Below are positions 41 to 10,662 of a stretch of 10,691 nt of DNA, piece by piece. The stretch's first letter is position 1. Each line of letters opens with the position of its first letter. The notes beneath the pieces are model-generated. The model searched no databases, had not been told where the DNA came from, and saw only the letters and a list, made by a program, of their open reading frames with translations. Origin of the DNA: Solirubrobacterales bacterium (GTDB lineage Bacteria > Actinomycetota > Thermoleophilia > Solirubrobacterales > Solirubrobacteraceae); NCBI GenBank assembly GCA_003134675.1, contig PLBZ01000080.1, forward strand, positions 1 through 10,691. The letters are read 5' to 3'. The position numbers and the translations under genes are program-made.

Positions 41-1687
41 TCAGTGAGCCTCCGTTCGCTCATCTCTCGCTGTCCCGTTCACCTCTCCCGCCGTGCTGCC
101 CGCATCAAGCGCCGATCCGTCGGCGGCGGTGAAACCTGGGAGATCGAGCGTGATCCGGGCGCCTCCCTCGGGTCTTCCTCCAGCTAGGACGTGTCCTTCG
201 TGTGCCTCGGCGATCGCGCGCACGATCGCCAACCCCAGTCCTGTCCCGCCCGAGGCGCGATCGCGGGCTGCGTCGGTGCGGTGAAAGCGATCGAAGACGC
301 GCTCACGCTGGTCTGCGGGGATGCCCGGCCCGTCATCTTCGACGACGAACCGCAGATGATCTGCGCCCTCACGCTCGACCCCTAGACGCACGAGTCCGTC
401 GCCGGGAGCGGTGTGTGCGATCGCGTTGCTGAATAGGTTGCGCAGTGCCTGCGCAAGGCGATCGGGATCGGCTCTCAGCGTCCCAGCCGGGATGGGGCCG
501 AGCTCGAAGCGCCGGTCGGCGATCAGGCTCATCCCGTCCCACAGCTCCTTGACGTAGACCGGCAGGTCGATCGGCTCGAGGCGCAGGAACTGCGTCTGCT
601 CGGCCTTGGCAAGTAGCAGCAGGTCATCGACGAGGCGGCTCATCCGGACGATCTCGGCCCGCACAAGACGCTCCACGCGACGCACCTCCTCACCGGGGGG
701 ATGCGGCTGGGAGGCGAGCACCTCGAGCTGGCCACCGATCACGGTCAGGGGCGTGCGCAGCTCATGGGATGCATCGGCGACGAACGCGCGCTGGCCCGCG
801 AAGGCGTCGGTCAGCCGGTCGAGCATATGGTTGAAGGCGACGGCCAGCACTCGCACCTCGCCCCCCTGGCTATCCAGGTCGTGGATGCGCGGGTGCAGGT
901 CGCCGGCATCCACCTGGGCGGCCACGGCGGCCATCCGGCGCAACGGACGCGACACGCGGGTGCCGATCAGATAGGAGGCTAGCAGCGCGCCGGCGAGCGT
1001 CAGGAAGCCGGCGAGGATGAACGCGCGCGCCACACCCCTCTGAGCATGAGCGACTGTCAGCAGGGGCTCGCCGACGCCGATAGTCACCCGAGCACCGCCG
1101 TAGGGGGCGGTGCTCCTGAACAGCTGGCCGATCTCCGATCGGCTCTCACCGGGGATACTCACCGTGTGCTTGAGCAGCCGCAGATCGCCGACGTCGGGGA
1201 GTCGCAGGGTCGAGTATCCGTCGTGCGCGCTCACCAGCTGCTGGGAGAGGCGGTTCTCTTGCGCTTGAGTGGCCGGTGTCTCACCGTTGTCGGGGGTCGC
1301 ATGGGCAAAGAGCTCGGGGCGGTTGGTGCTCGTTCCCGCCCCTGGGACGATCACGAACAGCAACGTGGAGCTCGCGCTGAACGGCTGAGCGCGCACGTAG
1401 CGCGTCGCGCGCTGGGCCACCTGTGCAGGGCGACGGTCGTCCGAGGAGGCGAGGGTGTGCGAGAGCTCACTCGCGTCGCCCGCGAGCTCCCGATCGATCT
1501 GGTGACGTAGCTGGGTCCCGGTGCCTCGATAGACGGTCACGAAGGTGATCCCAGTCGAGATCAGCACGACCACCGCGACCCACCCCGCGAGGCGCCAGCG
1601 CAGTCCGATTCCAGCCAGACGCCGGCGCAGGCTTGCTGGAGCAACCCTCCCGGTGGGCGGCGTGGGAGCCGGGTCGCTAAGCGCCAT
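41..1687 (-). CDS. HAMP-domain sensor histidine kinase (two-component system)
   Basis: Membrane sensor kinase that should autophosphorylate and pass phosphate to the response regulator encoded just upstream. I start at the ATG at 1687 (548 aa); an in-frame TTG lies six codons earlier. Numbering from the ATG: a basic cytoplasmic N-terminus, TM1 about 35-52, an extracytoplasmic loop of about 170 residues with no family I recognise, TM2 about 223-242, HAMP about 243-298, HisKA with the phospho-acceptor His308 in SHELRTP, N-box Asn421, the ATP-lid motif D451-D-G-P-G455, F-box FDRF, and G2 box GGTGLGLAI near 480-488. All catalytic boxes are intact. The ATG overlaps the last 11 nt of the regulator gene, so translational coupling is likely. 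The loop's ligand cannot be read from sequence; redox, metal or envelope signals would fit the neighbours. Confidence 0.96.
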   Translation of the reverse strand: MALSDPAPTPPTGRVAPASLRRRLAGIGLRWRLAGWVAVVVLISTGITFVTVYRGTGTQLRHQIDRELAGDASELSHTLASSDDRRPAQVAQRATRYVRAQPFSASSTLLFVIVPGAGTSTNRPELFAHATPDNGETPATQAQENRLSQQLVSAHDGYSTLRLPDVGDLRLLKHTVSIPGESRSEIGQLFRSTAPYGGARVTIGVGEPLLTVAHAQRGVARAFILAGFLTLAGALLASYLIGTRVSRPLRRMAAVAAQVDAGDLHPRIHDLDSQGGEVRVLAVAFNHMLDRLTDAFAGQRAFVADASHELRTPLTVIGGQLEVLASQPHPPGEEVRRVERLVRAEIVRMSRLVDDLLLLAKAEQTQFLRLEPIDLPVYVKELWDGMSLIADRRFELGPIPAGTLRADPDRLAQALRNLFSNAIAHTAPGDGLVRLGVEREGADHLRFVVEDDGPGIPADQRERVFDRFHRTDAARDRASGGTGLGLAIVRAIAEAHEGHVLAGGRPEGGARITLDLPGFTAADGSALDAGSTAGEVNGTARDERTEAH

Positions 1688-2393
1688 CGCCGAGGCGGTA
1701 GCCAACCGTGCGCACCGTGAAAATCGGGACCGGATTCTCAGGAAGGTTCAGCTTGCGCCTGAGGTAGCCAATGTAGACATCCACAACATTGGTGGTCGGG
1801 TCGTGCTCGTAGCCCCACACCGCGCTGAGGATCTGCTCGCGTGAGAGCACGCGTCCGCGGTGTCGAAGTAGATACACGAGCAGCTCGAACTCGGTGGTCG
1901 ACAGCCGCACCTGCTCACTGCCCCGGCGCACCTGGCGGGTGAGCAGGTTCACCTCGATGTCGCCGGCGCTCAGTATCCCTGTTGTGGTCTGCTCTGCCAG
2001 ACGCAGTTGAACTCTCACCCTGGCCGCGAGCTCAGCCAGGGAGAACGGCTTGACCAGATAATCGACAGCGCCCGCATCCAGCCCCACGACACGATCCTCG
2101 ATCTCACCGCGGGCGGTCAGCACAATCACCGGCACACTCGGCTTGGCCTGGCGGACGGAGGCGAGGATCTCCAGGCCGCTTCTCCCGGGAAGCATGAGGT
2201 CCAACACGATCAAGTCAAAACTGTCGTGCAGAGCTCGCCGCTCGCCCTCCGTTCCGTCCAGCTCGGCTTCCACAGCAAAGCCCTCGGCCTGAAGGCCCCG
2301 CCGCACGAAATCGACGATCCCCGGCTCATCCTCCACCAACAGGATCGTCGCCGAAACCGCCTGCTCCTCGGTGCGGTCAACGGAGCGCTGCAT
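1677..2393 (-). CDS. OmpR/PhoB-family response regulator
   Basis: DNA-binding response regulator of 238 aa, the partner of the overlapping kinase. Receiver domain about 16-130: acidic pocket Glu21-Asp22, phospho-acceptor Asp65 in LIVLDLMLPG, Thr93 in VLTA, and Lys115 in the V-K-P-F motif. The winged-helix output domain spans about 140-235, with the family-typical FTVRTVGYRL end. The first ATG is at 2393; a TTG at 2441 would add 16 residues lacking family resemblance, so I reject it. No clear Shine-Dalgarno precedes the ATG. A GAGGAG sits inside codons 9-10 but leads to no standard start codon in useful range. It is divergent from the membrane cytochrome gene at 2505. It is the only DNA-binding regulator encoded here, which makes it the prime candidate for reading the shared TCTCA promoter element (inference). 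Confidence 0.97.
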   Translation of the reverse strand: MQRSVDRTEEQAVSATILLVEDEPGIVDFVRRGLQAEGFAVEAELDGTEGERRALHDSFDLIVLDLMLPGRSGLEILASVRQAKPSVPVIVLTARGEIEDRVVGLDAGAVDYLVKPFSLAELAARVRVQLRLAEQTTTGILSAGDIEVNLLTRQVRRGSEQVRLSTTEFELLVYLLRHRGRVLSREQILSAVWGYEHDPTTNVVDVYIGYLRRKLNLPENPVPIFTVRTVGYRLGDGA

Positions 2394-2453: not shown

Positions 2454-2483
2454 TCTCATCATTCGATTACCGGGTCCTTAGCA
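2454..2483 (+). promoter_or_regulatory. TCTCA-N19-TTA promoter element of the membrane cytochrome gene
   Basis: TCTCA begins 51 nt before the ATG at 2505, and TTAGCA begins exactly 24 nt after the start of TCTCA, 27 nt before the ATG. The same geometry recurs at 6561 and 8343, and the TCTCA part also on the minus strand at 6492. TCTCA could be a regulator half-site at the -35 position or a non-canonical -35 element. No Shine-Dalgarno precedes the ATG. Confidence 0.5.
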
Positions 2484-2504
2484 AACCCCCACAGACTCAC
2501 CCTG

Positions 2505-3206
2505 ATGGCAGTCGATGACCGGACAAGAGCCCGCACAAGGCACGAACGAAATCTCACGGGGCCGGAGCCCCCCGCATCCCGGCCACCCTCATCCTCGGCA
2601 GGCTTGCTGCGCAGACGCCTGACCGCGGGCGGCCCGACCGGCAACGAGCGACTCACCGCAGCGACCGGGATCGTCCTCCTGGTCCTGTTCGCAGTCTTGG
2701 GCGTGACGCTTCTGCGGATCAGACCACTCCTGAGTGAGCATATGTTCCTCGGGATATTGCTGATCCCGCCCATCGCCCTGAAGATGGCGAGCACCGGCTA
2801 CCGGTTCATTCGCTATTACACCTCAAACCCCCGCTACCGGCTCAAGGGGGCACCCCCGCCCGCCCTGCGTCTGATCGCCCCGATCGTCGTAGCCTCGACG
2901 GTAGTCGTGTTCGCGAGCGGTGTCGCTCTGCTGCTCCTCGGGCCAAGCTCCCGTGGGCTCCTACTATTGGTTCACAAGGCGAGCTTCATCGTGTGGATAG
3001 CGGTAACCGCCATCCACGTACTCGGTCACCTTTCCGACCTACCCCGAGCACTGAAGAGTAAGCACGAAATCCAGCCGGAGCTAGACGGATATGGAACTGG
3101 CCGCGCGGGTCGAATCCTCTCTCTCTCTGGGGCGCTCGTCGCCGGGCTGGTACTCGCCATCCTCTACGTCCCCCAGTTCGCGCCCTGGCTAAACGCACAT
3201 CATTAA
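2505..3206 (+). CDS. Multi-pass membrane protein, putative b-type cytochrome
   Basis: A 233-aa protein I cannot assign to a named family. The first 50 residues are polar and Arg/Pro-rich (cytoplasmic). Hydrophobic segments follow at about 52-71, 78-94, 121-145, 152-175 and 204-222. Histidines in or beside them, His79 (EHMFLG), His157 (VHKASF), His171 and His175 (HVLGH), resemble the paired ligands of small di-heme b cytochromes. The Leu-Lys...Tyr-Arg...Arg-Tyr-Tyr signature after segment 2 looks conserved rather than random. Heme binding is inference from His placement. The gene has its own promoter element and is convergent with the ferredoxin gene. Its location between a two-component system and redox genes supports a membrane electron-transfer role. 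The ATG at 2505 is favoured because the promoter spacing matches that of three other genes. Confidence 0.85.
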   Translation: MAVDDRTRARTRHERNLTGPEPPASRPPSSSAGLLRRRLTAGGPTGNERLTAATGIVLLVLFAVLGVTLLRIRPLLSEHMFLGILLIPPIALKMASTGYRFIRYYTSNPRYRLKGAPPPALRLIAPIVVASTVVVFASGVALLLLGPSSRGLLLLVHKASFIVWIAVTAIHVLGHLSDLPRALKSKHEIQPELDGYGTGRAGRILSLSGALVAGLVLAILYVPQFAPWLNAHH

Positions 3207-3240
3207 CACCTAATCCCTGGTGGAACCGCTCATCATCTGG

Positions 3241-3308
3241 GGCTGAGCGTCGCATGCTGACTTTGAGGTTCGCCGGCTGAGCGCCGCATGTTGACTTTGA
3301 GGTTCGCC
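3241..3308. repeat. Tandem 34-bp direct repeat between convergent genes
   Basis: Copy 1 (3241-3274) and copy 2 (3275-3308) abut and match at 32 of 34 positions, differing only at repeat positions 10 and 17. Each starts GGCTGAGCG and ends TTGAGGTTCGCC. Inverted CGCTCA stretches flank the pair at 3227-3232 and 3308-3313; the latter overlaps the ferredoxin stop codon. The pair occupies most of the gap between the ends of the membrane cytochrome and ferredoxin genes. It could act in bidirectional termination, be a small dispersed repeat, or be the residue of an insertion-sequence end. No transposase is present. Confidence 0.85.
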
Positions 3309-3310
3309 GC

Positions 3311-3523
3311 TCAGCGCTGGGGTTGGCGGCGTTGGATGAGGAGAGCGAGAGTTGGACATGCGGCTGCGGCCCGCTGGGCGTGATCGAGCAGCTCGGGTGT
3401 GACCGGGTTTCCCTCGATGATGGGGTAGCCCCAGTCATCGAGGGTGATCATCTCGGGCAGAAGCTCGGCGCAGAGGCCGTGCGCCTCGCAGGTGATCGGG
3501 TTGACACGCAAATTGGTACTCAT
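3311..3523 (-). CDS. Small 3Fe-4S-type ferredoxin
   Basis: A 70-aa soluble electron carrier of the actinobacterial cytochrome-P450-type ferredoxin family. Ligand cysteines are Cys12 and Cys18 in C-E-A-H-G-L-C and Cys56 in A-C-P. The position that is Cys in 4Fe-4S relatives is His15 here, so a 3Fe-4S cluster is expected. Between them is the usual acidic L-D-D-W-G-Y segment. Length is normal for the family. I chose the ATG at 3523: it lies 4 nt after the NuoF-like gene's stop, whereas a longer reading would overlap that gene and add unrelated residues. It is the last gene of the 6441-3311 operon. No P450 gene is present, so the likely partner is the NuoF-like flavoprotein or the heme membrane protein encoded in the same operon (inference). 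Confidence 0.93.
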   Translation of the reverse strand: MSTNLRVNPITCEAHGLCAELLPEMITLDDWGYPIIEGNPVTPELLDHAQRAAAACPTLALLIQRRQPQR

Positions 3524-3527
3524 CGAC

Positions 3528-4838
3528 TCACGCGGCCACAGCCAGGTGTGGGTGCGACGGCAGTGGCAGCTCAGAGGGTCGTGCGCATGCCGCGCATGGC
3601 CCGTGGCGGGCATGCTCAGCGAACTCCTCAGCAAAGACGCTGAGCGCGCTTGCAACGAAACGGACCGTCCCGTCGGGGTGCGCGCAGGCACCGCGCCGCT
3701 GCACCATCGAGGCCCAGCGAGCGATGCGCTGCTCCGTTCCAGTGGCGGCGGTTCCAGCTTGGAGCTCCTCGATCGCTGTCGCGATTGTGTTTAGCCCGTG
3801 TACGCACGGTCCGCATTGCCCGGCTGTTTCCTCGGAGAGCCAGCGGGTGACCTGTGCTGTCTCGGCGACACCACACGCCTCCTCGGACAGCGCCATGACT
3901 ATGCCGGGGCCGAGTACTGCACCATAGGGTGCGAGCTGCTCCGTTGAAAGGGAGAGCGTGGATGCGAGCATGCCGGGTAGCCAGGTGCCTGAGTAGCCGC
4001 CGAGCAGTAGCGCCTTGATTTCGCTCGTCGAACCTCCGGCGGCCTCGATCAGGTCTCCCAGTGGCGCGCCGTGCTCGATCTCATAGACGCCCGGATATTC
4101 GATCGCGCCCGAGAGCGTCAGAAGCGCCGAGCCCGGTTGGGCGGGGGTCCCGAGCTCACGAAACCACTCAGGCCCATAGCGGGCGATCAGCGCGATATGT
4201 GCGAGCGTCTCGACATTGTTGATCAGTGTCGGGCGTTTCTGGACACCACGTTCGAAAGGCATCGGGGGTGTCAGCGTCGGCACGCCGGGGCCACCGTTGA
4301 GGTGACTGACAAGCGCTGACTCCTGTCCCGCGAGGTAGCGGTCCGGCACGAGTTCCACGCGCACCGGCACAGAGTCATATCGCTCTCTCTCACGTTCCCC
4401 CAGGGCTTGGGTGAGACTGTGCCGCGCTGTCTTCGCCGACCGTGGGATGCAGACGATGAGCTCGCTGGCGCCGACCGCCGCGACCGCGAGCGATCCGCCA
4501 TCCAGCACGAGGTGGGGCAGCGCCTCCAGCAGCAGCTTGTCCTTGAGGCTCGCCGGCTCGCCCTCGGCCCCGTTGGCAACGACGATTCCCCGACGTCGTT
4601 CTTTGGCTACCGCGCGCATCTTGACCGCGCTTGGAAACGCGGCGCCCCCGCGTCCGCATAGTCCCGCCCGCTCGATGCTCTCGACCAGTCCAACAGCATC
4701 TCGTCGCTTGTGCCGTCTGCCGTGGCCAGTGGGGATCTCGTCGTGGATCGCCAGATGCTCGCGCAGGCTCATTTGGCCCTGGTCCGGGGTGCCGATGAGC
4801 AGACGCGGTAGGCGCACCGCCTGTGCTTGGGTGCTCAT
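3528..4838 (-). CDS. NuoF-like FMN and iron-sulfur flavoprotein
   Basis: A 436-aa protein related to the 51-kDa NADH-binding subunit of complex I and hydrogenases. FMN/NADH domain: GRGGAAFP (62-69), NGAEGEP (89-95), GQESAL (171-176) and NNVET (207-211). A SLBB-like segment spans about 248-300. The Fe-S domain holds C342-G-P-C345 and Cys385 in GACAHPDG. In NuoF the cluster loop is C-G-x-C-x-P-C; the first cysteine is Ala339 here, leaving three classical ligands. An additional C415-A-A-C418 lies in the tail. The start ATG overlaps the upstream stop codon as ATGA, with AAGGTGG as a plausible ribosome-binding site. No other complex I genes are present, so this is a stand-alone paralogue, probably moving electrons between NAD(P)H, the ferredoxin and the heme membrane protein (inference). 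Direction and pyridine nucleotide are unknown. Confidence 0.93.
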   Translation of the reverse strand: MSTQAQAVRLPRLLIGTPDQGQMSLREHLAIHDEIPTGHGRRHKRRDAVGLVESIERAGLCGRGGAAFPSAVKMRAVAKERRRGIVVANGAEGEPASLKDKLLLEALPHLVLDGGSLAVAAVGASELIVCIPRSAKTARHSLTQALGERERERYDSVPVRVELVPDRYLAGQESALVSHLNGGPGVPTLTPPMPFERGVQKRPTLINNVETLAHIALIARYGPEWFRELGTPAQPGSALLTLSGAIEYPGVYEIEHGAPLGDLIEAAGGSTSEIKALLLGGYSGTWLPGMLASTLSLSTEQLAPYGAVLGPGIVMALSEEACGVAETAQVTRWLSEETAGQCGPCVHGLNTIATAIEELQAGTAATGTEQRIARWASMVQRRGACAHPDGTVRFVASALSVFAEEFAEHARHGPCAACARPSELPLPSHPHLAVAA

Positions 4839-5986
4839 TCGCCACCTTCGCTCGTGGTGGGAGAAGCGGCGAGCGTCCCGCTGACCGTGCCCGCACCAGT
4901 GTTGACCGCCAGGTTCACCTGTAGGGAGAGGCTGTGTCCTTCGCTACTGCGTACGCTCGCGACCAAGCGGCTTCCGTTCAGCGCGACGATCCGCCCGCGG
5001 TAGATCGCGGGCGTGGAGGTGCTGTGAAGCGTCACATGACTGCTGCGCAGCGAAACACCGCCTCCCCCCACTGGTTGACCGTCGATCTCGATATCAAGCC
5101 GCCCTGAAGGTGGGCCACTGAAGCTGGTCGCGATCTTGACCGCAACCAAGCCCGGCCCCGGCCCAGCACCCTGTTTGAGGCTGCCCGACATGCTCGCGTT
5201 GAAGGGACTGCCCAGCCCGCTCGATTGCGAGCTTTCAGCGCTCGCGGGTTCGCTCGCCTTCACGTTGGTGGTTGCGACTGGCGAGGACACGCTGGGGGAG
5301 CTGGACGCGAGTAGTGAGACCGGCGTGCCCGAACGGTGTGCCCAGCCGCGCCCCAGTGGGCCGCCCGGCAGCCACAGCACCAGGGCGATCAGGACGATTG
5401 CTGTGAGAGCCAACGCACCGCCGCGCACACGGCGGTGCTCAGGCCAGCCGGGGAGCGTCCGCGCACACACGGCGATCACCACAGCCACGACGCATATCAC
5501 GGTGAGGGCCAGCGACCATGCGCTCTTGACGTCGCTGCCCGTGCCGAGGCCATGCAGAAGAGCGATAGGCCAGCACGCGTATGCCAGCCAGTGAGTGATC
5601 CGCCACGCGCGATGCCCCAGCCGCTGGCGCACGAGGCTCGTGATGGCGATCGCGAGCAGCAGATCGAAAGCGACCGCTCCTAGCCCAAGCCAGAACGGCC
5701 GATAGCTTCCGATGAACGGCAGCACCGCATCGAGGAGCGCGATCGGCGCGAAGCTGTCAAGCGCCGCAGTGATGATGTGCAGGCCGAGGAAGACAAGCAC
5801 CAGCATCGAGATGCTGCGATGCAAGGAATCCAACACAAAGCGGGGCCAGCGCGGGTTGCTCCAGCGACTCACATCAATCACGCCAAGGACAACGCTCGCG
5901 GTGAGCAGCAGCAGCGACACCACGCCGGTAGAACGCGTCAGGTACCAGTAGACACTCGGACCCACAGTGCCCAGCACAAGCGTCAT
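4835..5986 (-). CDS. Ferric-reductase-like heme membrane protein with extracytoplasmic tail
   Basis: A 383-aa protein. The first ~206 residues contain about six membrane segments (near 13-36, 57-77, 97-118, 128-147, 154-174, 189-206), as in the ferric-reductase-like transmembrane domain. Histidine pairs His56/His70 and His132/His145 (LHR, GLH, THW, LHG contexts) are likely ligands for two b hemes. It has no FAD or NAD(P)H module, so electrons must come from another protein; the downstream NuoF-like protein and ferredoxin are obvious candidates. After the last membrane segment comes a Ser/Thr/Pro-rich linker (about 225-265), then a Gly-rich, beta-strand-like domain (about 267-375) that I do not recognise and that should face outward. 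The ATG lies 2 nt after the stop of the Pro-rich gene, and its own stop overlaps the next start, so the genes are tightly coupled. Confidence 0.9.
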   Translation of the reverse strand: MTLVLGTVGPSVYWYLTRSTGVVSLLLLTASVVLGVIDVSRWSNPRWPRFVLDSLHRSISMLVLVFLGLHIITAALDSFAPIALLDAVLPFIGSYRPFWLGLGAVAFDLLLAIAITSLVRQRLGHRAWRITHWLAYACWPIALLHGLGTGSDVKSAWSLALTVICVVAVVIAVCARTLPGWPEHRRVRGGALALTAIVLIALVLWLPGGPLGRGWAHRSGTPVSLLASSSPSVSSPVATTNVKASEPASAESSQSSGLGSPFNASMSGSLKQGAGPGPGLVAVKIATSFSGPPSGRLDIEIDGQPVGGGGVSLRSSHVTLHSTSTPAIYRGRIVALNGSRLVASVRSSEGHSLSLQVNLAVNTGAGTVSGTLAASPTTSEGGE

Positions 5987-5988
5987 CC

Positions 5989-6441
5989 TCAGGATCCACC
6001 CGAGACAACTGGTGCTTCTGGCGCCGGCTGGGCCGGTTCACTGTGTTCGACCGGCGCGGGTTCCTGGGCCGGTGGCGATTCTTTAGCCGGCGCGGATTCC
6101 TGGGCGGGCGCAGATTCTGGAGCTGGCGTGGGTTCCTGGGCCGGCGCCGATTCCTGGGGGGTGGTGGATTGCGGCGCTTGCGCAGGCGGCTTCAGCGAAC
6201 TGGACGAGCCCTGCGAGCTCTGGGTGTGGCGAGGCTGATGCTGTGTAGAGGCTTTGCTCGAATGTCCTGCGCTTGCCGCTCGGGCACTCGACGGCTTGAT
6301 TGTCTTACCCGGAAAGGCATTGGCCGCGACCGCTGTGAACACTCCCGTCAACGTCACGCTGCCGGCAACAAGCCAGCGCTTGGTGAATACGAGCCTGCGC
6401 AGCGCGGCATCTCTTGCGTGGGATGAATGCGATGGGATCAT
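5989..6441 (-). CDS. Membrane-anchored protein with Pro/Ala/Glu hexapeptide repeats
   Basis: A 150-aa protein of unknown function and the first gene of the redox operon. An Arg/Lys-rich start is followed by one hydrophobic segment (about 22-41) ending AANAFPG, which could be a signal anchor or an uncleaved or cleaved signal peptide. The rest is low-complexity and extracytoplasmic: a Ser/Gln/His-rich stretch (about 50-95), then about seven hexapeptides of the form xE(S/P)APA (96-137), then a Pro-rich end. I start at the ATG at 6441; GGGGAA lies about 10 nt upstream, and the TCTCA element lies exactly 51 nt upstream as in three other genes. An ATG at 6495 is also in frame but would start before that element. 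Such tails typically span or bind the cell wall, so it may hold or space the electron-transfer partner (inference). Confidence 0.75.
   Translation of the reverse strand: MIPSHSSHARDAALRRLVFTKRWLVAGSVTLTGVFTAVAANAFPGKTIKPSSARAASAGHSSKASTQHQPRHTQSSQGSSSSLKPPAQAPQSTTPQESAPAQEPTPAPESAPAQESAPAKESPPAQEPAPVEHSEPAQPAPEAPVVSGGS
6031..6156 (-). repeat. 18-bp tandem coding repeat (hexapeptide array)
   Basis: Seven consecutive degenerate 18-bp units encode Q-E-S-A-P-A-like hexapeptides: QESAPA, QEPTPA, PESAPA, QESAPA, KESPPA, QEPAPV, EHSEPA. Units one and four are identical at protein level, which suggests duplication rather than simple compositional bias. Repeat number may vary between strains. Confidence 0.85.
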
Positions 6442-6462
6442 CCAGTCATTATTCCCCGCCAA

Positions 6463-6492
6463 AACAAAATCCCAGCTAAGACACAGGTGAGA
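6463..6492 (-). promoter_or_regulatory. TCTCA promoter element of the redox operon
   Basis: On the minus strand TCTCA starts at 6492, exactly 51 nt before the ATG at 6441. The -10 region 24 nt further on (6468-6463) is T-rich (TTTTGT) but lacks the TTA box of the plus-strand promoters. Together with 6497-6501 the element forms the palindrome TGAGA-N4-TCTCA (6488-6501). Read on the minus strand this matches the palindrome upstream of 8394 at 14 of 16 positions, in the same orientation and at the same distance to the gene. Confidence 0.45.
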
Positions 6493-6493
6493 C

Positions 6494-6512
6494 ATCTCTC
6501 AGGATTAGAGAT
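6494..6512. repeat. Inverted repeat ATCTCT-N7-AGAGAT
   Basis: A perfect 6-bp inverted repeat with a 7-nt spacer, directly abutting the larger inverted repeat that starts at 6513. It overlaps the TGAGA-N4-TCTCA palindrome and lies upstream of both divergent genes. It is a probable protein-binding site rather than a terminator, since no gene ends here. Confidence 0.55.
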
Positions 6513-6555
6513 ATCTTCCTTGAGGGTTCGTCAAGGAAGATGACGAACCCTTAAG
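6513..6555. repeat. Two overlapping inverted repeats (a-b-a'-b' arrangement)
   Basis: The first is a perfect 11-bp inverted repeat: 6513-6523 pairs with 6531-6541 around the 7-nt loop GGGTTCG. The second, overlapping it, pairs 6519-6533 with 6541-6555 (15 bp, one G/T mismatch), again with a 7-nt loop. The loop of the first hairpin (6524-6530) is complementary to CGAACCC at 6544-6550, so the two structures are mutually exclusive, or form a pseudoknot in RNA. They lie between divergent genes. A minus-strand TTGACG (6534-6529) falls within them, and TCTAAT (6509-6504) follows at 19 nt, which could be a further weak promoter. Confidence 0.85.
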
Positions 6556-6560
6556 CGGTT

Positions 6561-6590
6561 TCTCATCGCCGGCTGATCCACGCTTTAGAT
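6561..6590 (+). promoter_or_regulatory. TCTCA-N19-TTA promoter element of the GT39 gene
   Basis: TCTCAT starts 50 nt before the ATG at 6611. TTAGAT starts 24 nt after the start of TCTCA and 26 nt before the ATG. Six bases of the element (TCTCATC in full) match the element at 2454. It lies immediately downstream of the overlapping inverted repeats. Confidence 0.5.
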
Positions 6591-6610
6591 GCGCGGCTGA
6601 AGCTGGCCGC

Positions 6611-8284
6611 ATGTTCTCCTGCCCGAATCGCACAAGCGTGAACGCCGGCACAGAACTGGCGATCAGGCCTGTAGAGACTCCCTCGCGCCCTCCTGGAGGC
6701 GCCCGTTGGGCGGTGTGGCTGGCGCTGGGTCTGATGCTTGTTCTGGCCAGCGCGCTGCGTCTGTGGAAGATTCACGATGTGACGGGCAACGTCTTCTACG
6801 ACGCGGCCGTGCGCAGCATGGGCACCTCCTGGCACGACTTCTTCTTCGGTGCGCTCGAGCCCAGTGGGACGGTCTCGATCGACAAGCCACCGGTCGACCT
6901 GTGGTTGCAGGTGGCCTCTACCCGTGTGCTGGGCTTCGACTTGGTCGGACTGCATCTACCGGAGGCGCTTGGCGGCGTGGCCGCCTGCGGGTTGCTGTTC
7001 GGCGTCCTGCGGCGCCCGTTCGGCTTCGCGGCGGCGCTTGCGGCAGCGCTCGCGCTCGCGGTACTGCCGGTGTCGGTGCTGACCGCGCGCAGCGACACGA
7101 TGGACTCGGTGCTTGCGGCCCTGGAGGTCGCTGCGCTGTGGTGCTCCTGGCGCGCGCTGGAGAGCGGGCGCATGCGCTGGTCGGTGCTGGCGGCCGCGGT
7201 GATGGGCTTGGCGTTCAATGTCAAGCTCTCCGAGATGCTGATCGCGCTCCCCGCCCTGGCGTTGCTGTGGCTGTGGGCGGCCGCGCCCGGAACCCGCGTG
7301 CGCGTCGCGCTGGCCACCGTCGGGACGTTTCTCGCGGTGGCGCTGTCGTGGACCGCGATCGCGTCGCTGACCCCCACCAGCATGCGGCCCTTTCCGATCG
7401 GCTCGGCCAACGGGAGCATCTGGCACGTCACGCTCGTATACGACGGCCTGGATCGTCTCTCCAGTCACGGCGGCACCGGAACGGCCGAAGGCGGCGCCGG
7501 CCCGCTGCGTCTGCTGAGCGCCGGCCCCACGCAGTACTGGACCCTGATCGGAGTCGCGCTGCTCGCCACCTCATTGCTTGGGCTATTGGCGCTGGTCGCG
7601 CTGGTCGCGCAGGGTCGTGAGCACCTGTTGAGCACTCTTCGCAGCCCGCCGGGACGGCTTGCCGTGGGAGTAGTGGTGTGGTTCCTCACCGGGCTGGTCG
7701 CCTTCAGCGCGATGGAACGCCTGCAGGTCCGCTACTTGGAGGCGTTCGCGCCGGCCGTCTGCGCCGTGTTCGGGCTGTCGCTGAGCGCGCTCTGGCGCGG
7801 CACTCTGCACCGTCGCCGTAGCTCGGGAGACCCGGGAAGCCGCAGAGTCCCGGTACTCCGCGTCGGCCTCCTATGCGTCGGGATCGGCCTATTGACGGCG
7901 TCACTGAACAAGGACGCCTACGTGATCCGCCGCGCTCGCTCCGACTCGCTGCTGACCGACTTCAGCACACCGGCGCTGAGCCGCTATCTGCGCGCCCATC
8001 GCGACGGGACCCACTACGAGGTCGCGGGCGCGAACATCAACGATGTCGTCGGACTCGTGGCGCGCGACGACCTTCCGGTCCTTGTCCTCAACAGCGTGGA
8101 CGGATCGCTCACACATACGAGAAGCCTGCGGGCTCTGGTGGCTGGGCGCCGTGTGCGGTTCTACTTCGTTGCGCCACACCCCTGTCATAGCGGGCGCCAC
8201 TGCCCATACAACCAGATCTGGGCCTATGCCCACAGCACCCCGGTACCGCGCCAGCCCGGTCTACGGCGCTTCACGGCAAGTTGA
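6611..8284 (+). CDS. GT39-family glycosyltransferase, YkcB/ArnT-like membrane protein
   Basis: A 557-aa integral membrane protein of the protein-mannosyltransferase/ArnT superfamily, which moves a sugar from a polyprenyl-phosphate donor to an extracytoplasmic acceptor. A short cytoplasmic start is followed by TM1 (about 33-50), then the first outer loop with the subgroup signature: FYDAAVRSM (62-70), SWHDFFFG (73-80) and SIDKPP (89-94). About ten hydrophobic segments follow to residue ~435. A C-terminal extracytoplasmic domain (about 445-557) has Cys525 and Cys531, which could form a disulfide. Length is slightly short for the family. The start is supported by the promoter spacing; the ribosome-binding site is weak. 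It is monocistronic, flanked by redox operons. Its acceptor is unknown; a cell-wall polymer or the neighbouring Ser/Pro-rich exported proteins are possibilities (inference). Confidence 0.9.
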   Translation: MFSCPNRTSVNAGTELAIRPVETPSRPPGGARWAVWLALGLMLVLASALRLWKIHDVTGNVFYDAAVRSMGTSWHDFFFGALEPSGTVSIDKPPVDLWLQVASTRVLGFDLVGLHLPEALGGVAACGLLFGVLRRPFGFAAALAAALALAVLPVSVLTARSDTMDSVLAALEVAALWCSWRALESGRMRWSVLAAAVMGLAFNVKLSEMLIALPALALLWLWAAAPGTRVRVALATVGTFLAVALSWTAIASLTPTSMRPFPIGSANGSIWHVTLVYDGLDRLSSHGGTGTAEGGAGPLRLLSAGPTQYWTLIGVALLATSLLGLLALVALVAQGREHLLSTLRSPPGRLAVGVVVWFLTGLVAFSAMERLQVRYLEAFAPAVCAVFGLSLSALWRGTLHRRRSSGDPGSRRVPVLRVGLLCVGIGLLTASLNKDAYVIRRARSDSLLTDFSTPALSRYLRAHRDGTHYEVAGANINDVVGLVARDDLPVLVLNSVDGSLTHTRSLRALVAGRRVRFYFVAPHPCHSGRHCPYNQIWAYAHSTPVPRQPGLRRFTAS

Positions 8285-8333
8285 ACCTAACGAGCACAAG
8301 CAGCCGAAATCACAAGTTAACGTTTGCCTATGC

Positions 8334-8372
8334 TGAGAAAGGTCTCACGAACGATTGAGGTACCTCTTATGC
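8334..8372 (+). promoter_or_regulatory. Palindrome plus TCTCA-N19-TTA promoter element of the FNR operon
   Basis: The palindrome TGAGA-N4-TCTCA occupies 8334-8347. Its TCTCA half begins at 8343, 51 nt before the ATG at 8394, and TTATGC begins at 8367, again exactly 24 nt later and 27 nt before the ATG. The perfect 10-bp palindrome GAGGTACCTC (8357-8366) fills the spacer and may be a second operator. The remainder of the 109-bp gap after the GT39 stop shows nothing else recognisable. Confidence 0.5.
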
Positions 8373-8393
8373 ATCTACTGTGTAGTACGGCCG

Positions 8394-9806
8394 ATGGAGC
8401 CCTCCGGCGGCGCCACTGTCCTAGACAGCTCACCGTTGGTTGCGCTCTCAAGTCGACTGTCGAGGGCGCGCAGGTCGCGCCGTGTGATCGCCACGTGCCT
8501 GTGGTTTGTGGTCGTCGTCAACGCCGTGGTGATCGTGTGGTTGTGGTTGCACGGCGGCGGTGTGAGCCGGGTGCACAGCTCGGCCGACGTGTTCACCAGC
8601 CTGGGACGGATCACGGGGCTCGTGGCGGTCTACCTTGCGCTGATTCAGGTCCTGCTGTTGGCGCGCCTGCCTCCGGTGGAGCGGTTGGTGGGCTTCGATC
8701 GCCTTACGGTGTGGCACCGGCGCAACGGCAAGGTGTGCATCTCGCTCGTGGTAGCGCACACCGTGCTGATCACGGTCGGGTACGCCAGCAGCGAACAGAT
8801 ATCGGTCCCCCGCGAGTTCTCGCGGCTGCTCTCGAGCTATCCGGGGATGGTCACGGCGACGGTCGGCACCGTGCTGATGGTGGGGGTAGTGATTAGCTCG
8901 TTGGTGATCGTGCGGCGGCGCCTGCCGTATGAGGGGTGGTATTTCGTGCATCTCTCCATTTACGCCGGGATCGCACTCTCCTACCTGCACCAGCTACCGA
9001 CCGGCAACGAGTTCACGACACACGCCTCCCAGGCCGACTACTGGATCGCCCTGTATGTGGTGACTTTAGCTTTGCTGGTTTGCTTCCGCTTGGCGGTGCC
9101 GGCATGGGGAGCATTCCACTACCGTCTGCGGGTCTCCGGCATCACGCAGGAGGCTCCCGGGGTCGTCTCGCTGCATATCACCGGCCAGCACCTCGATCGC
9201 CTGGACGCACACGCGGGCCAGTTCATGCTCTGGCGCTTTCTCACACGCGGCCGCTGGTGGCAGGCGCACCCATTCTCGCTGTCGGCCTCGCCCGACGGAC
9301 AGTCTCTGCGGCTCACCATCAAGAACGTCGGCAACTTCACCAGCCGCATAGCCGATGTGGCACTCGGCACCGCAGTGCTCGCCGAAGGACCTTTCGGCAC
9401 CTTCACGCACCTCCAGCGCACTCGACCACGCGTAGCGCTGATCGCGGGCGGCATCGGCATCACCCCGATCCGGGCGCTCTTCGAGGAACTACCCGCTGCA
9501 CCCGGTGGGCTGGCGCTCATCTACCGCGTGATCCGCGAGGAGGATCTCGTCTTCCGCACCGAGCTCGAGGAGATCGCCCGCGAACGGGGCGCCGAGCTCT
9601 TCTTCGTCGTCGGCGATCACCGCACGATAGCCGGCCGCGACCTGCTCTCACCGACGCACCTGCTGCAGCTGATCCCGGACATCGTCGAGCGCGAGGTCTA
9701 CCTCTGCGGACCCCACACGATGATGATCAGGACCGAAGGAAGCCTGCACGGCGCCGGTGTGCCGGCCCGCCAAATCCACAGCGAGCGATTCGCGCTCGCC
9801 GCCTGA
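8394..9806 (+). CDS. Ferric reductase/ferredoxin-reductase fusion (heme membrane domain plus FAD/NAD(P)H domain)
   Basis: A 470-aa transmembrane oxidoreductase. The membrane part (about 33-237, six segments) has His108 (VWHRR) and His122 (AHT) paired with His186 (VHLS) and His199 (LHQ), the expected ligands of two b hemes. The cytoplasmic part has an FAD barrel (about 240-340) with HPFSLS (292-297) and GPFGTF (332-337), then an NAD(P)H domain with AGGIGITPIR (351-360) and the terminal CGPHTMM (438-444). It should pass electrons from NAD(P)H through FAD and hemes to an extracytoplasmic acceptor. I use the ATG at 8394; a TTG at 8355 falls inside the promoter region. ApbE follows after 19 nt, so the two are co-transcribed. 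The acceptor could be ferric iron, a quinone or a flavinylated protein. Confidence 0.94.
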   Translation: MEPSGGATVLDSSPLVALSSRLSRARRSRRVIATCLWFVVVVNAVVIVWLWLHGGGVSRVHSSADVFTSLGRITGLVAVYLALIQVLLLARLPPVERLVGFDRLTVWHRRNGKVCISLVVAHTVLITVGYASSEQISVPREFSRLLSSYPGMVTATVGTVLMVGVVISSLVIVRRRLPYEGWYFVHLSIYAGIALSYLHQLPTGNEFTTHASQADYWIALYVVTLALLVCFRLAVPAWGAFHYRLRVSGITQEAPGVVSLHITGQHLDRLDAHAGQFMLWRFLTRGRWWQAHPFSLSASPDGQSLRLTIKNVGNFTSRIADVALGTAVLAEGPFGTFTHLQRTRPRVALIAGGIGITPIRALFEELPAAPGGLALIYRVIREEDLVFRTELEEIARERGAELFFVVGDHRTIAGRDLLSPTHLLQLIPDIVEREVYLCGPHTMMIRTEGSLHGAGVPARQIHSERFALAA

Positions 9807-9825: not shown

Positions 9826-10662
9826 ATGTCCGAGCAGACCTACATCCAGGACGCTCCCGGCGTGGGCGCTCACCTGCACCGCCTCGAGCACGTTATGGGC
9901 ATGCCCATCGGCGTGGACGTGTGCGATCCCGAAATCGAAGCGAGCACCGTGGACCGCGTCTATCAGTGGCTGCGATTTGTGGACGCCACGTTCAGCACCT
10001 ACAAAGAGGACAGCGAGATCAGTCGTCTGAACCGGGGCGAGCTCGCCCTCGAGCAGACGCACCCCGCCGTGCGCTCAGTGCTGCGTCGCTGCGAGCGCCT
10101 GCGGGCACAGACCGACGGCTACTTCGACATTCGAGCGCCGCTTCAGAGCACCGTGCAAACCACAGCCGAAGGCGACCCTGGGCGCCCGATCGACCCATCC
10201 GGACTGGTCAAGGGATGGTCCGTCGCCGGAGCCGCCCGCATCCTCGAGCGGGCGGGAGCGCGCAACTACTGCGTAAACGCGGGCGGGGATGCTCGTCTGC
10301 GCGGTTGCTCTTGGAACGGTGAGCGCTGGCGCGTGGGGATCCAGCACCCCACGATCCGCGACCGCCTGGCGGCCGTACTCGTCGCGAGTGAGGTGGGGAT
10401 CGCGACCTCCGGAGCCTACGAGCGGGGCGAACACATCATCGATCCCCACACAGGCAGCCCTTCCGAGGGAGTCCTGTCGGTGACGATCGTCGGTCCCGAC
10501 GTGGCCACTGCCGACGCGTACGCCACGGCCGCTTATGCCATGGGCCCCAAGGGAGCGCAGTGGTGCGCCGGGCTGAAGGACTACGCGGCGATGATGATCC
10601 TCGCCGAGGGAAACGTCCTATCCACACCAGCCATGAGCCGCTATCGCGCCGATGCACCCTGA
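9826..10662 (+). CDS. apbE: ApbE-family FAD:protein FMN transferase
   Basis: A 278-aa enzyme that attaches FMN from FAD covalently to a Thr or Ser of target proteins. Family motifs in order: MGMPIGVDV (24-32, the usual MGT region), FSTYKEDSEISRLN (56-69), TDGYFDIRA (96-104), LVKG (127-130), NAGGD (151-155), TSG (194-196), HIIDPHTG (203-210), and the metal site D230-AYA-T234. All key positions look intact. There is no signal peptide or lipobox, so it should act in the cytoplasm, unlike classical ApbE lipoproteins. The ATG at 9826 has AAAGGAAAG upstream, a clear ribosome-binding site and one of the better ones here; a GTG 23 codons earlier lies inside the preceding gene. No FMN-binding-domain target is encoded in the window; it may lie just downstream. 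Confidence 0.93.
   Translation: MSEQTYIQDAPGVGAHLHRLEHVMGMPIGVDVCDPEIEASTVDRVYQWLRFVDATFSTYKEDSEISRLNRGELALEQTHPAVRSVLRRCERLRAQTDGYFDIRAPLQSTVQTTAEGDPGRPIDPSGLVKGWSVAGAARILERAGARNYCVNAGGDARLRGCSWNGERWRVGIQHPTIRDRLAAVLVASEVGIATSGAYERGEHIIDPHTGSPSEGVLSVTIVGPDVATADAYATAAYAMGPKGAQWCAGLKDYAAMMILAEGNVLSTPAMSRYRADAP

Follow-up and report, generated by a model that had tools for sequence, protein, structure and literature searches.

Phased 11-bp repeats before four transcription units of a Solirubrobacterales bacterium have the layout of an OmpR/PhoB-type operator

In Escherichia coli and Streptomyces, the PHO box of PhoB or PhoP consists of tandem direct repeats of 11 nucleotides (nt) that are bound head to tail (PMC4415409), and the MtrA site of Corynebacterium glutamicum combines 8-base-pair (bp) direct repeats with a 3-bp linker, giving the same 11-bp period (PMC3353115). 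Leaderless promoters of Mycobacterium tuberculosis carry a -10 element just upstream of a transcription start that is also the start codon, with no -35 consensus (PMC3898074), while the MsrQ-like flavinylation clusters of Actinobacteria unite a PF01794 protein, ApbE and an FMN-binding protein with an NAD-binding domain or a NuoF-like partner (PMC8238504); each of these accounts is used here as far as the consulted part of it extends. We analysed a 10,691-nt stretch of DNA from a Solirubrobacterales bacterium (assembly GCA_003134675.1, contig PLBZ01000080.1, hereafter the window), in which four transcription units encode a cytochrome-like membrane protein, a NuoF-like/ferredoxin operon on the minus strand, a GT39-type glycosyltransferase (GT39) and a ferric-reductase-like protein with FAD- and NAD-binding domains (FNR) followed by ApbE. 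Their promoters share a phased repeat array, and each unit probably carries an operator for one and the same OmpR/PhoB-type response regulator.

The array is made of direct repeats of approximately TNA[G/T/C], in 11-bp steps from about -48, -37 and -26 relative to the start codon in all four promoters, with an additional unit at about -59 in three of them; the cytochrome-like gene has no in-phase unit there. The predicted operator of this gene (2456..2482, +) comprises TCATC (2456-2460), TTACC (2467-2471) and TTAGC (2478-2482), assigned by their 11-bp phase and by alignment with 16 orthologous promoters. Phase and pattern match likewise define the arrays of GT39 (6552..6589, +; TAAGC 6552, TCATC 6563, TGATC 6574, TTAGA 6585) and of the FNR-ApbE operon (8334..8371, +; TGAGA 8334, TCACG 8345, TGAGG 8356, TTATG 8367), and that of the minus-strand operon (6464..6501, -; TGAGA 6501-6497, TCACC 6490-6486, TTAGC 6479-6475 and a weak TTTGT 6468-6464) is conserved in a relative (G006). 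A first-pass annotation of this DNA had reported a TCTCA box at 2454(+), 6561(+), 8343(+) and 6492(-), lying 51, 50, 51 and 51 nt from the ATGs at 2505, 6611, 8394 and 6441, with a TTA box at +24 in three of the four promoters (starts 2478, 6585 and 8367). These words and distances are real; the reading of them as two boxes gives way to the phased array, in which TCTCA includes the -48 unit and TTA is the -26 unit, two steps (22 bp) further downstream. At the minus-strand site, TTT rather than TTA stands at +24, and TTAGC precedes it by one repeat, keeping to the 11-bp phase. The array has the layout of an OmpR/PhoB-type operator, as judged from its sequence.

Beside these arrays, two overlapping inverted repeats lie at 6513-6555(+), between the minus-strand operon and GT39, one of 11 nt with 100% identity (6513-6523/6531-6541) and one of 15 nt with 93% (6519-6533/6541-6555); they may represent alternative hairpins or a further binding site.

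TCTCA occurs 23 times in the window against 19.2 expected, so that its shared position, not its abundance, is what counts. Lack of enrichment is what a chance coincidence of a short word would predict, an explanation that we find hardly credible because shuffles, orthologue alignment, genome scans and the 11-bp triple test described below all contradict it. Only one 5-mer, TCTCA, stands at a common position (±1 nt) in the four 100-nt upstream regions, and none of 3000 dinucleotide shuffles placed any common 5-mer in all four, which bears out the annotation's judgement that the coincidence is rare, in a test made after the fact on four starts picked by an earlier reader. The fuller pattern TCTCA-N8-TNA-N8-TTA has three matches in the window and none in 300 shuffles, the pattern itself having been derived from the window and its relatives.

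Spacing and motif are kept in the orthologues of both promoters compared (two of the four), those of the cytochrome-like gene and of the minus-strand operon, the latter in one relative (G006). From 18 loci given, 17 promoters of the cytochrome-like gene, read between the regulator and the gene that diverges from it, align gap-free (the window's and 16 others, 15 from the same genus and one from a sister genus), with ATGAG-N4-CTCAT, TTA, CTTAG and ACACT blocks that are invariant or nearly so; the alignment pattern presupposes the T and A of each unit, which inflates self-match at lag 11. Across 13 promoters, self-match at lag 11 was 0.396 against 0.249 in column shuffles (0/300 as high), a comparison that is not independent, as these promoters had been picked by the pattern TCTCA-N8-TNA-N8-TTA-N23/24-ATG. 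Freer of such preselection is a search of the 420 nt beyond the regulator in 22 same-genus loci, for which promoters were not preselected and start codons not chosen, prior results supplying nothing but the word T[CT]A: T[CT]A-TNA-T[CT]A triples appear in 18 of these loci at an 11-bp period, and no other period between 7 and 18 has them in more than one. Additionally, in 80 loci we counted TCA/TTA pairs over the 260 nt preceding the cytochrome-like match; they peak at lag 11 in the 36 loci with the regulator type (51 pairs, then 22 at lag 22 and 13 at lag 24). In the relative G005 (L044), five consecutive units can be read by eye.

In G006, the conserved minus-strand promoter is followed on the same strand by the ferric-reductase-like gene and, directly behind it, by GT39 (85% identical), which leaves GT39 without an orthologous promoter to compare and ties it to the same regulation. 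In both G006 and G002 (L074, L076), the cytochrome-like, Ala/Pro-rich, ferric-reductase-like, NuoF and ferredoxin genes are co-directional behind a single array; of the two runs, only that of L074 has a detected ApbE-like gene. The window shows the run in separate pieces, each with its own array.

The conserved ATGAG-N4-CTCAT of the cytochrome-like family, together with TGAGA-N4-TCTCA at 8334-8347 and 6488-6501, would also suit a palindromic operator for a dimeric repressor, of which the direct repeats would be by-products. This seems very improbable, given that the distance between the arms is not constant, the promoter classes differing by 2 bp, that the GT39 site has a weak left arm only, and that the downstream units are as well conserved as the palindrome; phased repeats mimic a palindrome because TGA and TCA are complementary to each other.

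The array, with its 11-bp period and its position, recurs beside orthologous regulators. The window's candidate activator is an OmpR-type response regulator (1677..2393, -; Response_reg and Trans_reg_C domains, start ATG 2393), with a sensor histidine kinase as its probable partner (41..1705, -; HisKA, HATPase_c, HAMP). We gathered 80 loci with an alignment of the cytochrome-like protein, from Solirubrobacterales, Conexibacter, Streptomyces, Acidimicrobiaceae and others; 36 of them, set by hand, carry the regulator type (at least 55% identity), and for array scoring the start codon was the best-scoring in-frame candidate, by a rule identical for all loci. Of the 36 loci with this regulator type, 31 have an array, against 2 of the 44 without it (Fisher p 1.1e-14, a value inflated because the loci share ancestry). 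Under a stricter rule, a divergent regulator within 1.5 kb, 26 loci have both, 8 the regulator only, 7 the array only and 39 neither; array and regulator type coexist in five loci where the regulator is not divergent (L112, L140, L147, L162, L173). The recognition-helix stretch TN[VIL][VL][DEQ]VY[IV]GYLRRKL is little changed across the 36 regulators, except that L152 and L147 deviate at its end, and among 18 weaker regulator matches only L178 (47%) keeps GYLRRKL. Both the 10-11 bp repeat period and the co-occurring regulator gene of an OmpR/PhoB-type tandem-repeat operator are thus found here, and the adjacent regulator most likely governs a single regulon devoted to MsrQ-like/ApbE-type, flavin-based electron transfer across the membrane. 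The first-pass annotation had named this protein as one of two possible regulators of a single regulon, the option favoured here.

A different OmpR-type regulator could bind the array instead, for instance a PhoP or the second copy of the regulator that we found at G000:C67 (L057, L073), 79% identical to the window's and adjoining NuoF and an Ala/Pro-rich protein; no kinase match lay near that copy in the 20 kb read. PHO boxes, in the part of the source used, have the 11-bp layout too (PMC4415409). We judge such a regulator unlikely, as array and this regulator type co-occur (31/36 against 2/44) and the array adjoins the regulator gene; also, no phosphate genes were recognised among the 30 of 37 genome-scan matches that were read, with no dedicated pst search made. 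The locus shares with the PHO box its tandem 11-nt units and an OmpR/PhoB-type regulator, whose binding is here predicted, and differs in consensus (GTTCACC in S. coelicolor), in having three to five units where the PHO box has two, and in its redox targets (PMC4415409, in part). The window's regulator scores 203.3 bits against the NCBI PhoB model (TIGR02154), below the cut-off of 296.2, and is not a PhoB equivalog; the PHO regulon was rejected as a candidate, consensus and regulator both failing to fit. Similarly, the MtrA site is OmpR-type with an 11-bp period, but its consensus, (A/G)TAACAAT, and its targets as given in the part of the source used are different (PMC3353115), and the regulator scores 197.3 against the MtrA cut-off of 300. 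The MprA box of mycobacteria, a further candidate for comparison, was set aside after a literature search with no usable result.

Genome scans extend the array beyond the window. TCTCA-N8-TNA-N8-TTA-N23/24-ATG is matched 21 times among 61 genomes, 15 of which have a match. The window's own genome contributes five, including the three that define the pattern, and letter-reversed elements give no match; the 61 genomes overlap the 80 loci (for example, L099 and G002:C1, L100 and G006:C124), so the sets are not independent. The cytochrome-like gene accounts for 13 of the 21, the window included, and 19 precede an open frame of at least 150 amino acids, the short frames being those of L083 (22 codons) and L098 (61 codons). 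When the pattern is relaxed (CTCA start, RTG), 21 of the 61 genomes yield 37 matches; with a 12-bp period there are 4, in 4 of the 61. We read 30 of these 37 as loci; the other seven comprise three on the window's contig (GT39, FNR and L098), one that equals L096 and three left unread in G018. Sixteen of those read are the cytochrome-like gene (its frame broken in L188), and seven, from several genomes of the genus, belong to one lipoprotein-like family of 331-430 amino acids (L182, L184, L185, L194, L200, L204, L205), three members of which were scanned against Pfam and gave no significant hit. Two resemble DUF2231 proteins (one scanned and confirmed), one is a kelch protein, one an Ala/Pro-rich protein homologue by eye, one resembles a phosphodiester glycosidase by eye, with no hit in Pfam, and two are without assignment. 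Named strains with complete genomes, Conexibacter sp. S30A1 (L134) and Conexibacter sp. DBS9H8 (L122), carry the array as well.

Elsewhere in the scanned material, a near-identical operator and gene start occur twice in one genome, at G000:C49:3560 (304 codons) and G000:C89:19842 (61 codons; L078, L098), and more TGAGA/TCTCA words lie before two other genes on the window's contig (L077:2300-2470, L077:5770-5960), with no clear 11-bp array.

Downstream of the array, each of the four window promoters has a hexamer with T as its last letter, ending 6-7 nt short of the ATG. These putative -10-like elements are CAGACT (2492..2497, +; 7 nt before ATG 2505, an ACACT block in relatives), GAAGCT (6599..6604, +; 6 nt before ATG 6611), TGTAGT (8381..8386, +; 7 nt before ATG 8394) and AATAAT (6448..6453, -; 6 nt before ATG 6441), the first three degenerate; TATGCT (2400-2405) stands 6 nt upstream of the regulator's own ATG at 2393. 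Across 70 loci over 9 kb, many of them copies of the regulator locus, we counted TANNNT by its distance to 3745 candidate starts: it occurs 31 times at 6 nt and 32 times at 7 nt upstream, and 1-14 times at other distances up to 29 nt. In 12 loci with GT39 homologues or the window's flank, it occurs 4 and 10 times at these two distances before 783 starts and 0-4 times at others, so that only the 7-nt peak stands out in this subset. A sigma-70 scan of the window gave no promoter-like sites against 1.4 expected, in line with a missing -35 element. Leaderless transcripts, with transcription from the start codon, are probable, and the operator's distance to the ATG would then be its distance to the transcription start, hence fixed. 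PhoB-type activators act from the -35 region, which, given leaderless starts, the array would cover. The putative -10-like element just before the start and the missing -35 recall the leaderless promoters of M. tuberculosis, as far as the part of their description used here goes (PMC3898074), whereas the -10 is degenerate here and the array fills the -35 region; the leaderless starts of the window are predicted.

The fixed distance to the start codon and the two strongly conserved words would also be expected of the -35 and -10 boxes of an alternative sigma factor, the other regulator that the annotation had considered. That is improbable because at least three similar units follow one another at 11 bp, and five in a row in L044, where such a promoter would have two boxes only. 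A separate -10-like block (ACACT) lies further downstream, leaving the last array unit too near to be a -35, and the array is associated with one response-regulator type. Under the OmpR-type regulator favoured here, the phosphorylated protein (1677-2393, -) would bind the 11-bp units head to tail, replace the missing -35 element and recruit RNA polymerase to the degenerate -10, whose last letter lies 6-7 nt ahead of the ATG; transcription would begin at the start codon and give a leaderless mRNA, and the regulon would serve flavin-based (MsrQ-like/ApbE) electron transfer across the membrane. We consider this full mechanism, proposed from sequence comparisons, likely.

Several observations weigh against it. 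The last TNA unit is missing from the minus-strand array, and no -10-like hexamer (0/4) fits TANNNT. The distance from the TGAG arm to the next unit is 11 bp in three window promoters and 9 bp in the cytochrome-like family, a spacing difference between promoter classes for which simple direct repeats do not account. The array rule is not satisfied in five loci that have the regulator (L107, L114, L116, L117, L120), although in L107 and L114 a position matrix finds the array, with no start at the right place; conversely, L108 and L122 have the array without the regulator in the stretch examined. L046 dropped out of the promoter alignment, and the triple is absent from four of the 22 same-genus loci (L045, L046, L049, L051). 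Among the 44 loci that lack the regulator type, lag 11 is likewise the commonest spacing (13 pairs, the next having 7), so that the layout also occurs to some extent apart from this regulator. The G000:C67 copy could be the one that binds the array.

The cytochrome-like small membrane protein (2505..3206, +) has no Pfam hit at 0.001, and an orthologue matches DUF4405 at 0.0055, below the family cut-off. The minus-strand operon begins with the gene of an Ala/Pro-rich membrane protein (5989..6441, -; no Pfam hit) and further encodes a ferric-reductase-like, MsrQ-like membrane protein identified by its Pfam domains (4835..5986, -; PF01794), a NuoF-like protein (3528..4838, -; PF01512, PF10589, PF10531) and a small ferredoxin (3311..3523, -; Fer4_15). 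On the plus strand follow GT39 (6611..8284, +; PMT_2) and, from domain searches, FNR (8394..9806, +) and the ApbE flavin transferase (9826..10662, +); an FMN_bind protein follows ApbE just beyond the window, completing the MsrQ-like flavinylation set of PF01794 protein, ApbE and FMN-binding protein. The window thus holds two MsrQ-like forms, PF01794 with FAD/NAD-binding domains beside ApbE and PF01794 beside NuoF-like protein and ferredoxin, matching both the NAD-binding and the NuoF-like partner forms of the actinobacterial clusters, which the part of the source used describes by gene content, with no regulator or operator given in that part (PMC8238504). Between the cytochrome-like and ferredoxin genes, a 34-nt unit, GGCTGAGCGTCGCATGCTGACTTTGAGGTTCGCC, is tandemly repeated with 94% identity (3241-3308, +), and an 18-nt tandem repeat (6053-6178, +) encodes the Ala/Pro/Glu-rich tail of the small membrane protein at 5989..6441.

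In the literature searched, with most subscription journals outside that search, we found no such regulator or regulon in this lineage. It is an evenly balanced proposition that Solirubrobacterales and their kin have a dedicated two-component regulon, in which one regulator would govern NuoF-coupled and NAD-binding MsrQ-like systems as well as envelope lipoproteins through leaderless promoters with an array in place of the -35 element, arranged as one long operon in relatives and broken up here, each piece with its own operator. As the named Conexibacter strains with complete genomes carry the array, this may be testable beyond uncultured bins. If true, it would provide a computable regulator and operator for the MsrQ-like/ApbE electron-transfer systems of Actinobacteria, would tie GT39, DUF2231 and the lipoprotein family to redox function, and would offer a ruler for start codons in a lineage seemingly rich in leaderless genes.

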